Shown here: in pieces, positions 15,291 to 19,600 of the stretch
Layout: every line of letters begins with the position of its first letter
How positions within the stretch are numbered: the stretch's first letter is position 1
Assembly (NCBI RefSeq): GCF_004217135.1
Contig: NZ_SHKK01000001.1
Coordinates: 4,774,001-4,838,000 of the forward strand
Reading direction: 5' to 3'
DNA length: 64,000 nt
Source of the DNA: Micromonospora violae
GTDB taxonomy: Bacteria > Actinomycetota > Actinomycetes > Mycobacteriales > Micromonosporaceae
The notes under the pieces: model-generated
Database searches by the model: none
What the model saw: only the letters and a program-made list of their open reading frames with translations
Told to the model about the DNA's origin: nothing
Program-made: the position numbers and the translations under genes

Positions 15291-17732
15291 TCAGAGCTTG
15301 TCGACCGGGGCGTGCCGGAGCACCAGCCACATGGTCTGGTCGCCGAAGTCGATCTGCGCGCGCGCACCCGGGCCGTGCCCCTCGACGGCGAGCACCCGAC
15401 CCAACCCGTACCGCTGATGATTGACCCGGTCGCCGGCGGACACCTTCGGCCCCTGCGGCAGCTCGCTGGCCGTGGTGAGCCGGCTGGCGTCCACGCCGAG
15501 CCGCTGGGCCAGCTGTGCCGCCTTCGGTGTGCCACCGGTGAAGGTGCCACGGCCGCCGGGCGCGCGGTCCGCACGACCGCCCACGCCGCCGCCCCCGCCA
15601 GCCCACGAGGTGTACGACCCTTCCGTGCGCTCCCAGTGCACCAACTCGGTCGGCAGCTCCTCCAGGAAGCGCGACGGCGGGTTGTAGGACGGCTGCCCCC
15701 AGGCCGAGCGGGTCACCGCCCGGGAGAGGTAGAGACGCTGTCGGGCGCGGGTGATGCCGACGTACGCCAGCCGGCGCTCCTCCTCCAGCTCGCGGGTGTC
15801 GCCGAGCGAGCGTAGGTGCGGGAAGACGCCGTCCTCCAAGCCGGTCAGGAAGACCACCGGGAATTCCAGGCCCTTGGCGGTGTGCAGGGTCATCAGGGTG
15901 ACCACGCCCTGGTGAGGTGCGGCGTCGTCTGCCTCGTCGCCGTCCGGCGACGAGCCGGGTTGCGCAGGGATCTGGTCGGCGTCAGCGACCAGCGCCACCT
16001 GCTCCAGGAAGCCGGCCAGGGTGGCCCGCTCCCCGTCGGCGCCCAGCGCCTCGATCCGCTCGGTGTACTCGCGGGCCACACTGACCAGTTCCTGGAGGTT
16101 GTCCACCCGACCGGCGTCCTGCGGGTCCAGGCTCTCCTCCAGCTCGGTGAGGTAACCGGAGCGGGTCAGCAGCGCCTCCAGCACTTCCTCCGGGGTGCCG
16201 GTCTCGGCCAGCTCGCGGGCGCCGTCGAGCAGCGCCACGAAGTCGGCGATGCCGTTCGCCGCCCGGCTGGAGATGCCCGGCGCCTCCCGGGCCCGGCGCA
16301 GGGCCGCGCCGAAGGAGATCCGGTCGCGGCTGGAGAGCGCCTCGACGCACGCCTCGGCGCGGTCGCCGATCCCCCGGCGCGGGGTGTTGAGCACCCGCCG
16401 CAGGCTCACCGTGTCGTCGTCGTTGACCACCGAACGCAGGTACGCGAGGGCGTCGCGGACCTCCTTGCGCTCGTAGAAGCGCACCCCGCCGACCACCTTG
16501 TAGGGCAGGCCGACGCGGATGAACACCTCCTCGAAGACGCGGGACTGGGCATTGGTGCGGTAGAAGACCGCGACGTCGCCGGGGCGGGTCTCGTCGGCGT
16601 CCACCAGCCGGTCGATCTCCCGGGCCACCCAGTCGGCCTCGGCGTGCTCGGTGTCGGCCACATAGCCGACGATCTGCTCACCGGCGCCGGCCTCGCTCCA
16701 CAGCCGCTTGGGTTTCCGGGAGGTGTTGCGGTCGATCACCGCGTTGGCCGCGTTGAGAATGGTCTGGGTGGAGCGGTAGTTCTGCTCCAGCAGGATCGTC
16801 CGGGCGTCGGTGAAGTCCCGTTCGAACTCCAGGATGTTGCGGATCGTCGCGCCCCGGAACGCGTAGATCGACTGGTCGGCGTCGCCGACGACGCACAGCT
16901 CGGCGGGCTCCAGCCCGTCGGTGCCGGAGACCAGCTCCTTGATCAGGACGTACTGGGCGTGGTTGGTGTCCTGGTATTCGTCCACCAGCACGTGCCGGAA
17001 CCGCCGGCGGTAGCTCTCCGCGACGTGCGGGTGGGACTGGAGCAGGTGCACCGTGGTCATGATCAGGTCGTCGAAGTCCAGTGCGTGGGCCTCCCGCAGC
17101 CGACGCTGGTAGAGCGTGTACGCCTCGGCGAGGGCCCGCTCGTTGGGCCCGGTGGCCCGCGCCGCGAACTGCTCCGGATCGACCAGCTCGTTCTTCAGGT
17201 TGGAGACCTGGGCCGCCAACCCCCGCGCCGGGTAGCGCTTCGGGTCGAGATCCAGCTCGCGGGTCACCAACTGCATCAGCCGGCGGGAGTCGTCCGCGTC
17301 GTAGATCGAGAACGTCGACTTGAGGCCGGCGTGCTCGTGCTCGGCACGCAGGATCCGTACACAGGCCGAGTGGAACGTCGACACCCACATGAGGCGGGCC
17401 CGGGGACCGACCAGCGCGGCGACGCGTTCCTTCATCTCGCCGGCGGCCTTGTTGGTGAAGGTGATCGCGATGATCTCACCAGGGTGCACGTCCCGAGCGG
17501 CGAGCAGGTAGGCGATCCGGTGCGTGAGCACCCTGGTCTTGCCGGACCCGGCGCCGGCCACGATCAGCAACGGTGAGCCGGCATGGCTGACGGCGTCGCG
17601 CTGCGGCCCGTTCAGCCCGTCGAGCAGCTGCTGCGGATCGAGGCGCGCGGTGGCCGCCCCGGGTCGGTACGGGCGGGCCGGCGCGGACTCCGGCGCAGGC
17701 GGGGACGCGGGGATGTCGAAGAGAGGATGCAT
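15291..17732 (-). CDS. pcrA: ATP-dependent DNA helicase PcrA/UvrD
   Basis: 813 residues. Superfamily 1A 3'-5' helicase for nucleotide excision repair and replication-conflict clearance. Q motif LNGPQRDAV at 40-48, Walker A AGAGSGKT at 59-66, DEYQDTN (motif II), GDADQSIYAFRGA (III), QNYRST (IV), TLHTAKGLEF (V) and VGITRARQRLYL (VI). The C-terminal 50 residues (DRVNHQRYGLGRVL...) form the Tudor-like RNA polymerase-binding domain. No ribosome site; TAGACT (17742-17747, minus strand) lies 9 nt before the ATG, fitting a leaderless mRNA. Confidence 0.96.
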   Translation of the reverse strand: MHPLFDIPASPPAPESAPARPYRPGAATARLDPQQLLDGLNGPQRDAVSHAGSPLLIVAGAGSGKTRVLTHRIAYLLAARDVHPGEIIAITFTNKAAGEMKERVAALVGPRARLMWVSTFHSACVRILRAEHEHAGLKSTFSIYDADDSRRLMQLVTRELDLDPKRYPARGLAAQVSNLKNELVDPEQFAARATGPNERALAEAYTLYQRRLREAHALDFDDLIMTTVHLLQSHPHVAESYRRRFRHVLVDEYQDTNHAQYVLIKELVSGTDGLEPAELCVVGDADQSIYAFRGATIRNILEFERDFTDARTILLEQNYRSTQTILNAANAVIDRNTSRKPKRLWSEAGAGEQIVGYVADTEHAEADWVAREIDRLVDADETRPGDVAVFYRTNAQSRVFEEVFIRVGLPYKVVGGVRFYERKEVRDALAYLRSVVNDDDTVSLRRVLNTPRRGIGDRAEACVEALSSRDRISFGAALRRAREAPGISSRAANGIADFVALLDGARELAETGTPEEVLEALLTRSGYLTELEESLDPQDAGRVDNLQELVSVAREYTERIEALGADGERATLAGFLEQVALVADADQIPAQPGSSPDGDEADDAAPHQGVVTLMTLHTAKGLEFPVVFLTGLEDGVFPHLRSLGDTRELEEERRLAYVGITRARQRLYLSRAVTRSAWGQPSYNPPSRFLEELPTELVHWERTEGSYTSWAGGGGGVGGRADRAPGGRGTFTGGTPKAAQLAQRLGVDASRLTTASELPQGPKVSAGDRVNHQRYGLGRVLAVEGHGPGARAQIDFGDQTMWLVLRHAPVDKL

Positions 17733-17856
17733 CGCCCGACAAGTCTATGCCGCCGGTCGGACACTGCGCCGCTGGCGCTCAGCAGCTCGTGCCCGACGGC
17801 GTGCACCACCGCGTACGCCCACCGGTGAGAAAGCTGCCCTCCGCGACGCGGAATGC

Positions 17857-17886
17857 TTGCGCACCCGGCAGCGACGTGGGCATACT
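17857..17886 (+). promoter_or_regulatory. Promoter of the chorismate mutase leader
   Basis: TTGCGC (17857-17862), 18-nt spacer, CATACT (17881-17886). The -10 box ends 7 nt before the GTG of the leader peptide, so the leader transcript would begin at or very near its start codon. Confidence 0.6.
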
Positions 17887-17893
17887 CGACGGC

Positions 17894-17959
17894 GTGATCG
17901 CTGCGCGCTACTACTTTTACTATGGCACCGGGAGTCCGGCTGCCGTAGGTCGCGCCTGA
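17894..17959 (+). CDS. Aromatic-amino-acid leader peptide of chorismate mutase
   Basis: 21 codons beginning GTG and ending TGA, encoding M-I-A-A-R-Y-Y-F-Y-Y-G-T-G-S-P-A-A-V-G-R-A. Five consecutive aromatic codons (Tyr-Tyr-Phe-Tyr-Tyr, 17909-17923) are very unlikely by chance in such DNA and are the classical mark of ribosome-mediated attenuation. A competing segment follows at 17931-17939 and a terminator at 17976-18009. Leader for the chorismate mutase gene at 18056. Confidence 0.82.
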   Translation: MIAARYYFYYGTGSPAAVGRA

Positions 17960-17990
17960 TCGATTCAGACCTGCTAAAGCCCCGGGCTCC
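17931..17990 (+). promoter_or_regulatory. Predicted antiterminator pairing
   Basis: GGAGTCCGG occurs in the leader (17931-17939) and again in the 3' arm of the terminator (17992-18000). Either copy can pair with the terminator's 5' arm (17978-17990). A ribosome stalled on the Tyr/Phe codons (17909-17923) would leave the upstream copy free, allowing the antiterminator and read-through into chorismate mutase. Confidence 0.7.
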
Positions 17991-18009
17991 TGGAGTCCGG
18001 GGCTTTTTC
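17976..18009 (+). terminator. Attenuator terminator before chorismate mutase
   Basis: 14-bp stem with one G-U pair (17976-17989 with 17993-18006, 3-nt loop) followed by a T-run: a standard intrinsic terminator, but placed 47 nt upstream of a gene rather than after one. Confidence 0.88.
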
Positions 18010-18055
18010 CGTCCCAGGTTCCGGGCACCGGGCACCACAGTGCGAGAGGTACCCG

Positions 18056-18445
18056 ATGATGACAGACGTGATGGAGCAGAGCGGCAGCCCGATCCGACCG
18101 GGGCAGTCCGCGGCGCAGGAGGCCGAGGCGGCGGAGGCCACGACGCCGGCAGGTGTCGACGCCGAGCCGGCCGAGCAGCAGACCGGCACCGCGGAGCCGG
18201 TCGCCGCCGCGCGGATCGTGCAGATCAGGGAACGGATCGATGAGATCGACCACGCGTTGATCACGCTCTGGCAGGAGCGGGCCGCGTTGTCCCAGGAGGT
18301 CGGGGCGACCCGGATGGCGTCCGGCGGAACCCGTTTAGTGCTCTCCCGCGAACGGGAGATCCTGGAGCGGTTCCGGGTCGCGCTCGGCGCCGACGGCACC
18401 CAACTGGCCCTGCTGCTGCTCCGCGCGGGCCGCGGCCCGCTGTGA
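18056..18445 (+). CDS. Chorismate mutase (AroQ type)
   Basis: 129 residues. Converts chorismate to prephenate at the branch to Phe and Tyr. The first 50 residues are an Ala/Glu/Pro-rich tail. The all-helical AroQ core follows: IVQIRERIDEIDHALITLWQ, then ERAALSQEVG and SREREILERFR, with the Arg and Glu residues expected in the active site. The core is short, as in actinobacterial AroQ-delta enzymes, which in mycobacteria depend on DAHP synthase for activity. Start ATG 18056 or ATG 18059; GAGAGG lies upstream. Expression is probably set by the attenuator. Confidence 0.88.
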   Translation: MMTDVMEQSGSPIRPGQSAAQEAEAAEATTPAGVDAEPAEQQTGTAEPVAAARIVQIRERIDEIDHALITLWQERAALSQEVGATRMASGGTRLVLSREREILERFRVALGADGTQLALLLLRAGRGPL

Positions 18446-18538
18446 GCCGCACCGGCCCGCAGGTGACTCACCCGGCCCGCTGAGACACGGCGTGCGCTCC
18501 TGCGCGTCGCAGGCGGCCGATCCGGTCCCGGACAACGA

Positions 18539-18579
18539 AAACCGCCTGCCGCCGTCGTGCTGACGGCGGCAGGCGGTTT
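18539..18579. terminator. Bidirectional terminator between chorismate mutase and transporter operon
   Basis: Perfect 18-bp stem (18539-18556 with 18562-18579, 5-nt loop), A-rich on the left and T-rich on the right, in the gap between convergent genes. Confidence 0.9.
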
Positions 18580-18586
18580 CGGTGAC

Positions 18587-19600
18587 TCACGCCTCGTGGG
18601 TGGCGACGATCTCGCGCTTCTCCGCGAAGTGGCAGGCGCTCGGGTGGTCCGAGCCCTGCCGGATCTCCAGCAACGGCATCTGCTCGGCGCAGACGTCCTG
18701 TGCCTTCCAGCACCGGGTCCGGAACCGGCAACCCGAGGGCGGGCTGATCGGCGACGGCACGTCACCCGTGAGCCGGATGATCGCCTTGTTGTTCCGCTGC
18801 GTCGGGTCCGGCACCGGCACCGCGGACAGCAGAGCCTGGGTGTACGGGTGGGTCGGCCGCTCGTAGATCTCGTCCTCGGTGCCGATCTCGACGATCTTGC
18901 CGAGGTACATCACCGCGACGCGGTCCGAGAGGTGGCGAACCACCGACAGGTCGTGCGCGATGAAGACGTACGAGAGCCCGAACTCGCCCTGCAACTGCTC
19001 CAGCAGGTTCATGACCTGGGCCTGGATGGAGACGTCCAGCGCCGACACCGGCTCGTCACAGACGATGATCTCGGGCCGCAGCGCGAGCGCGCGGGCGATG
19101 CCGATGCGCTGACGCTGACCGCCGGAGAACTGGTGCGGGTACCGGTTGATGTGCTCCGGGTTGAGCCCGACCAGGTCGAGCAGCTCCCTGACCTTGGCCC
19201 GGCGGCTGCCCTTCGGCGCGACCTCCGGGTGGATCTCGAACGGCTCACCGAGCAGGTCACCCACGGTCATTCGCGGGTTCAGCGAGGTGTACGGGTCCTG
19301 CATGACCAGCTGGATCTGCCGGCGCAGGCGACGCAGCGCCCCACCGGACAGCTTGGAGATGTCCTGACCCTTGTAGACGACGCTGCCTTCGGTCGGCTTC
19401 TCCAGGTTCATCAGCACCCGGGCGAGGGTCGACTTGCCGCAGCCGGACTCGCCGACCACGCCGAGCGTCTCACCGGCACGCAGATCGAACGAGACCCCGT
19501 CGACCGCCTTGACCTGACCGACGGTCTTCTTGAACACCACACCCTGCGTCACGGGGTAGTGCTTGACCAGGTCACGGACCTCGAGGATGTTCTCAGACAC
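18587..19600 (-). CDS. Peptide ABC transporter ATP-binding protein, DppF/OppF type (system 2)
   Basis: 337 residues. Walker A GESGCGKS at about 55-62, signature [14 protein letters not shown], Walker B IIVCDEP followed by SALD, and H-loop FIAHDLSVV. The C-terminal extension includes [14 protein letters not shown]. Very close to the system 1 protein at 4001-5035, with long identical blocks. Overlaps the upstream ATPase gene by 8 nt, so they are co-translated. Last gene of the operon. Confidence 0.94.

Follow-up and report, generated by a model that had tools for sequence, protein, structure and literature searches.

The window analysed here (the whole stretch of DNA, 64 kb in length) carries ahead of its chorismate mutase gene an element, positions 17894-18008, which is in all probability a ribosome-mediated transcription attenuator of that gene, and its sequence and conservation make it very likely that this attenuator is functional. 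The element combines the features of trp-type control, i.e., a leader ORF rich in control codons, an intrinsic terminator in front of the gene, and an antiterminator sharing the 5' arm of the terminator. Chorismate mutase commits carbon to phenylalanine and tyrosine.

Organization of the Leader Region

The chorismate mutase gene (18056-18445, forward strand) encodes a 129-residue protein of the AroQ class, which matches PF01817 with 39.1 bits (cut-off 27) and is the only PF01817 match in the 7.1-Mb genome. It forms a divergent pair with a UvrD-type helicase gene (15291-17732, reverse strand), and the leader ORF and the terminator sit in the gap between both genes. Leader ORF and chorismate mutase gene are 96 nt apart, a distance that includes the complete terminator. 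Beyond the gene, chorismate mutase and oligopeptide ABC transporter genes converge, and a perfect 18-bp inverted repeat (18539-18579) between them is likely a two-way terminator. The parts of the leader region are the following:

17857-17862, forward strand: -35-like box TTGCGC, read from the sequence (TTGCG in most of the Micromonosporaceae rows listed)
17881-17886, forward strand: -10-like box CATACT, read from the sequence (a NANNNT box is conserved before leader starts)
17894-17959, forward strand: ORF for the leader peptide VIAARYYFYYGTGSPAAVGRA, apparently leaderless, of 21 codons (GTG at 17894-17896, stop codon TGA at 17957-17959)
17909-17923, forward strand: control codons Tyr-Tyr-Phe-Tyr-Tyr (TAC TAC TTT TAC TAT), read from the sequence, at conserved codon positions
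17920-17948, forward strand: protector (1:2) hairpin, pairing 17920-17927 with 17941-17948 and 17928-17931 with 17936-17939, from folding and covariation
17930-17991, forward strand: antiterminator, pairing region 2 (17930-17941) with region 3 (17978-17991), from folding, covariation, and duplex energies
17945-17951/17968-17974, forward strand: stem nested in the antiterminator, from folding, with the leader stop codon in its loop
17976-18008, forward strand: intrinsic terminator (3:4 hairpin with T-run), stem 17976-17989/17993-18006 and T-run 18004-18008

The repeat GGAGTCCGG is present twice (17931-17939 and 17992-18000), and its two copies are region 2 and region 4, rivals for region 3. The last Tyr codon of the control run falls inside the protector hairpin. 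A sequence-only reading of this DNA had claimed a classical attenuator complete in all its parts, with five consecutive aromatic codons in a 21-codon leader. ORF, codons, terminator, and shared-arm repeat can indeed be read directly and covariation agrees, but that inventory had missed the protector hairpin and the nested stem.

The whole leader folds with -57 kcal/mol versus -40.3 +/- 3.3 kcal/mol in shuffled sequences (z -5.1), and the terminator stem with -26.0 kcal/mol (z -4.8 against shuffles). The protector accounts for -19.9 kcal/mol and the antiterminator, with its nested stem (17945-17974), for -30.6 kcal/mol; a transcript lacking both the 3' arm of the terminator and the outer 5' arm of the protector has the antiterminator as its minimum-energy fold (-30.3). 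The window contains a single short ORF with at least four consecutive F/Y/W codons, and the terminator comes next, whereas dinucleotide shuffling of all 64 kb, repeated 100 times, gave no such ORF. Intergenic terminators are common, and one might think of an ordinary one next to a spurious short ORF with an aromatic run arisen by chance. That nothing comparable appears in the shuffles, that the neighbouring helicase gene is divergent, and that codon positions are conserved and helices covary across families (see below) contradicts such an origin, which we regard as extremely improbable.

The attenuator might operate as follows. RNA polymerase would begin at or beside the leader GTG, and a ribosome would load on the leaderless 5' end of the transcript. 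With charged Tyr-tRNA and Phe-tRNA in ample supply, this ribosome would reach the stop codon and depart; the protector could then form, leaving region 3 free to pair with region 4, and the resulting terminator would stop transcription near 18008. If Tyr or Phe were scarce, the ribosome would stall on 17915-17923, masking the upstream strand of the protector. This would release region 2 to pair with region 3 before region 4 is made, with the nested stem stabilizing the duplex, and the antiterminator so formed would preclude the terminator and permit transcription of the chorismate mutase gene.

Putative Promoter and Leaderless Start

The position of the -35-like and -10-like boxes would put the transcription start at the GTG or beside it. 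Of all components of the attenuator, the promoter, noted already in the sequence-only reading, is the least secure. Its boxes are there and the -10-like one is conserved, but a sigma-70 scan found no promoter ahead of the leader. When leader starts were chosen without reference to the box, a NANNNT box lay 6-8 nt upstream of the start in 85 of 92 leaders, compared with 106 of 1472 shifted upstream positions; the count of 147 among 153 leaders is biased, as those starts were chosen partly by such a box. Shine-Dalgarno duplex energies are -2.6 for the leader of the window versus -7.7 for the chorismate mutase start, and the respective means are -2.78 for leaders (n = 153) and -7.98 for chorismate mutase starts (n = 67); the leaders have a poor Shine-Dalgarno sequence, chorismate mutase starts a good one.

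Distribution and Gene Association

Scanning named genomes with the chorismate mutase protein gave 125 confirmed loci, 80 of which were kept, mostly from Micromonospora, but also from Salinispora, Phytohabitans, Actinoplanes, Asanoa, and others, including three MAG records. All 80 possess a cluster of aromatic codons in a short ORF upstream of chorismate mutase. Together with the window, these 81 sequences comprise 77 distinct ones, which were aligned. At E<=0.01, covariance model R1 finds a match in 223 of the 298 genomes sampled from the order, and in 60 of 60 fetched loci, drawn across families from among the R1 matches listed, chorismate mutase is encoded directly downstream on the same strand, that of L197 being a weak match (E 3e-4) over a short stretch. 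With model R2, built from 86 matches, 238 of 298 genomes and 60 of 76 genera of the order are matched at E<=1e-6, the downstream gene having been checked for part of them only. The element is found beyond the order too and is not specific for Micromonosporaceae, the family named in the sequence-only reading. In 18 representatives of the order, fetched at chorismate mutase irrespective of a match, an aromatic leader is seen by eye in 14; of the other four, L225 has an F-L-Y version, L216 is ambiguous, and L212 and L226 are without an aromatic leader, L225 and L226 being poorly located by the profile used.

In the wider class, chorismate mutase follows the element at each of the 21 loci examined in family f33, one of the leaders being MLTHPTFLFTYGNRPTGCHGRAA. 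Family f8 loci L213, L273, L274, L322, and L324 likewise have the element ahead of chorismate mutase, and the enzyme of L273 aligns closely with Rv0948c structures, by which f8/g8 resembles Mycobacterium; the switch thus also precedes genes for enzymes closely related to the much-studied chorismate mutase of mycobacteria. Among 20 fetched weak R2 matches across the class, three lie before chorismate mutase and five before DAHP synthase, while the remaining 12 have neither gene downstream and look like plain terminators, which is why the class tally of 219/394 overstates the spread. Second-strand matches, seen at many elements, are an echo of the palindromic terminator.

No intact element was encountered at 11 CM-domain loci of eight f8 genomes that had been chosen for absent or weak R2 matches. 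L314 retains a degenerate element, and L312 has a terminator-like hairpin without an aromatic run. L306 and L308 (g20 of f8) share a different 5' region, with a short non-aromatic ORF together with a TCTGTTTCACGGTGAA stretch common to both, which is possibly another regulator. In L309, L310, and L311 chorismate mutase itself apparently is encoded by a leaderless transcript with no attenuator. Rfam returned three matches up to E 1 for window positions 17500-18600, all to unrelated families and below the gathering cut-off, and none at the gathering cut-off for six relatives.

Covariation of the Competing Helices

In alignment A3, which was fitted to the R1 structure and favours its own three helices (protector, nested stem, and terminator), 20 of their 28 pairs show double changes; double-change cells number 239 versus 88.7 in shuffles and 9-27 when the arms are slid. 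Ten of 14 terminator pairs show double changes in this alignment, as do six of seven pairs of the nested stem, for which 82% of cells pair in the fitted alignment, the weakest value of the four helices. The outer stem of the protector has 37 double-change cells (19.8 in shuffles). For the antiterminator, a helix absent from model and fit, 38 double-change cells are counted (15.7 in shuffles, 0-9 with slid arms); the number of its pairs with double changes, however, shows no excess (4 versus 3.0 shuffled, 144 of 500 shuffles). In the codon-register analysis, which is independent of the model, an antiterminator pair alternates between G-C (30 of 93 rows) and C-G (29 rows). Within Micromonosporaceae, where sequences are highly conserved, shuffles equalled the observed antiterminator covariation.

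Across 14 families, duplexes of region 2 with its own region 3 reach -14.1 kcal/mol versus -11.9 kcal/mol for permuted partners, and one of 5000 permutations is as good; in this set f10 is a misanchored row, L225 was dropped, and L197 was kept with a misanchored region 3. In nine of the 14, the representative's own duplex is stronger than those with region 3 of other families, which fails for f5, f7, f9, f10, and f12. The covarying stems that the sequence-only reading had proposed to look for are therefore present in terminator, protector, and antiterminator. T-runs are short in many relatives, with at least five T in eight positions in 29 of 92 and at least four in 73 of 92. In L039, L049, L055, L056, and L061 (Actinoplanes and relatives) the terminator stem reaches into the usual position of the T-run (GGGGCTTGA), so that the U-tract is nearly gone.

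Leaderless upstream ORFs can affect downstream translation, and the leader might govern access of ribosomes to the chorismate mutase start rather than termination. Such translational coupling or translation attenuation could be suspected for L037, L049, L051, L052, and others, in which the leader stop lies less than 50 nt from the region of chorismate mutase homology, although the true start may be further on. In the window, however, 96 nt with a complete terminator intervene and the gene has its own strong Shine-Dalgarno sequence; moreover, the covarying rivalry is that between region 2 and the 5' arm of the terminator and does not involve the Shine-Dalgarno sequence. We therefore consider control of translation very unlikely and favour transcription attenuation.

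Placement of the Control Codons

A total of 153 leaders of the order were brought into register by the Tyr-Gly at the start of the protector. Codons are aromatic in 150/153 leaders at position -2, in 144/153 at position -1, and, partly by construction, in 153/153 at position 0. Position -2 is Phe in 144 leaders and position 0 is Tyr in 151, whereas Trp occurs at -3 to 0 in none of the 153; the f33 chorismate mutase leaders L249 and L321 do have Trp at -3. Conservation of the aromatic codons, which the sequence-only reading had named as a check, is thus evident in these leaders as in the 80 loci from named genomes. The mixture of codons suggests that the attenuator senses Phe plus Tyr.

In a footprint model applied to 93 sequences, antiterminator pairing (as a fraction of 9 bp) is 0.70, 0.87, 0.90, and 0.66 with the A-site codon at -3, -2, -1, and 0, respectively, and drops to 0.31 at +1, 0.08 at +2, and 0.05 for ribosome-free RNA. 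As the near-invariant aromatic codons coincide with the highest modelled pairing, they seem to be placed where stalling should work; according to the model, a ribosome stalled there would block the protector and spare region 2. Stalling on the first Tyr codon of the window's leader yields a modelled value of just 0.07. With the ribosome at the stop codon and upstream RNA free, modelled pairing averages 0.35 (0.49 in the window, at most 0.2 in 27 of 93 sequences), and hence one has to postulate either departure of the ribosome or a topological block.

The leader peptide is strongly conserved inside Micromonospora, as would be expected if the nascent peptide were an arrest peptide that stalls the ribosome upon binding free Tyr or Phe. 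However, what persists among the 153 leaders is the run of aromatic residues, the Gly, and, in 142/153, Pro at +5, and in L050, L152, L153, L156, L161, and L164 the GCCGTAG-type RNA element is retained while the C-terminal half of the leader is in a frame other than that of the window. Since each of the three frames is used to read the element in one relative or another, conservation concerns the RNA and not the peptide. Sensing by an arrest peptide is thus very unlikely, and stalling for lack of charged tRNA would be the preferred reading.

Similar Leaders Ahead of DAHP Synthase

R2 also found eight leaders of this architecture ahead of DAHP synthase (L253, L257, L258, L263, and L264 from f31, L267, and L318 and L326 from genomes outside the class), the downstream protein of L257 belonging to PF00793. 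In seven of them, e.g., MRTAFWFWYGDGPESVRHLTLR, positions -3 to 0 include Trp codons in addition to Phe or Tyr, L267 having none; this fits with a switch that would respond to all three end products at the initial step of the pathway. In the 420 nt upstream of the organism's own DAHP synthase gene (PF01474), no short ORF with adjacent aromatic codons was found. That a single ancestral RNA switch governs the aromatic pathway across Actinomycetota, with Tyr-Gly invariant at the protector base, seems to us as likely as not; codons -3 to 0 would have been swapped according to the enzyme (Phe and Tyr almost only at chorismate mutase, Trp gained at DAHP synthase), and the switch would have been lost in some Mycobacteriaceae-like lineages. 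The codon exchange between both kinds of leaders makes the evolution of attenuator specificity testable.

Significance and Comparison With Known Systems

Control of the Phe/Tyr branch point in Actinobacteria has been described, in the portions of the literature available, as feedback inhibition. If it works as proposed, the attenuator would superimpose control of transcription in the majority of the genomes sampled from the order, and it might provide a ready-made reporter for Phe- and Tyr-tRNA and a handle for strains making aromatic-derived natural products.

Searches of the open-licence literature, including that on Rv0948c, turned up no description of attenuation at an actinobacterial chorismate mutase gene. 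Rv0948c has been discussed without attenuation or a leader peptide (PMC6437058), and a description of mycobacterial ilvB1 attenuation does not include Rv0948 (PMC13236596). The word 'chorismate' is absent from the main texts of PMC2965389, PMC4833913, and PMC4633059. Judging from excerpts, no conserved RNA structures were seen for phenylalanine/tyrosine operons of Actinobacteria (PMC1262725), eight leaders listed for S. lividans include none for Phe or Tyr (PMC8079986), and attenuators of tyrA operons have been treated in other bacteria (PMC1173090).

The mechanism is of a known, classical kind; what is new is a widespread, very probable attenuator of chorismate mutase, undescribed for Actinobacteria in the literature searched. 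E. coli pheA encodes a bifunctional chorismate mutase-prephenate dehydratase, and its leader pheL is concerned with Phe only and is led by a Shine-Dalgarno sequence; in these respects it differs from the present case. It resembles the present case in the Phe-rich leader, the choice between terminator and antiterminator, and the chorismate mutase activity encoded downstream. The pheL/pheA attenuator is mentioned in PMC11802643. For Corynebacterium, attenuation of chorismate mutase had been named as a precedent in the sequence-only reading, but in the excerpts of PMC11802643, PMC11525245, and PMC7356990, which cite Neshat et al. (2014), the aromatic leader of C. glutamicum is aroR ahead of aroF, encoding DAHP synthase, and the same excerpts do not describe csm (chorismate mutase) as attenuated. 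Compared by description in these partial sources, aroR is similarly an actinobacterial leader, with Phe-Tyr-Phe codons, at which stalling is said to raise transcription of an aromatic gene. In contrast, the gene controlled is that for DAHP synthase, and the aroR attenuator is said to answer to Phe and not to Tyr (PMC11802643). Finally, as far as the excerpts of PMC1262725 and PMC8079986 extend, trpL, ilvL, and leuL of Streptomyces and Corynebacterium are actinobacterial attenuators as well, several of them leaderless, whereas their control codons are those for Trp or branched-chain amino acids.
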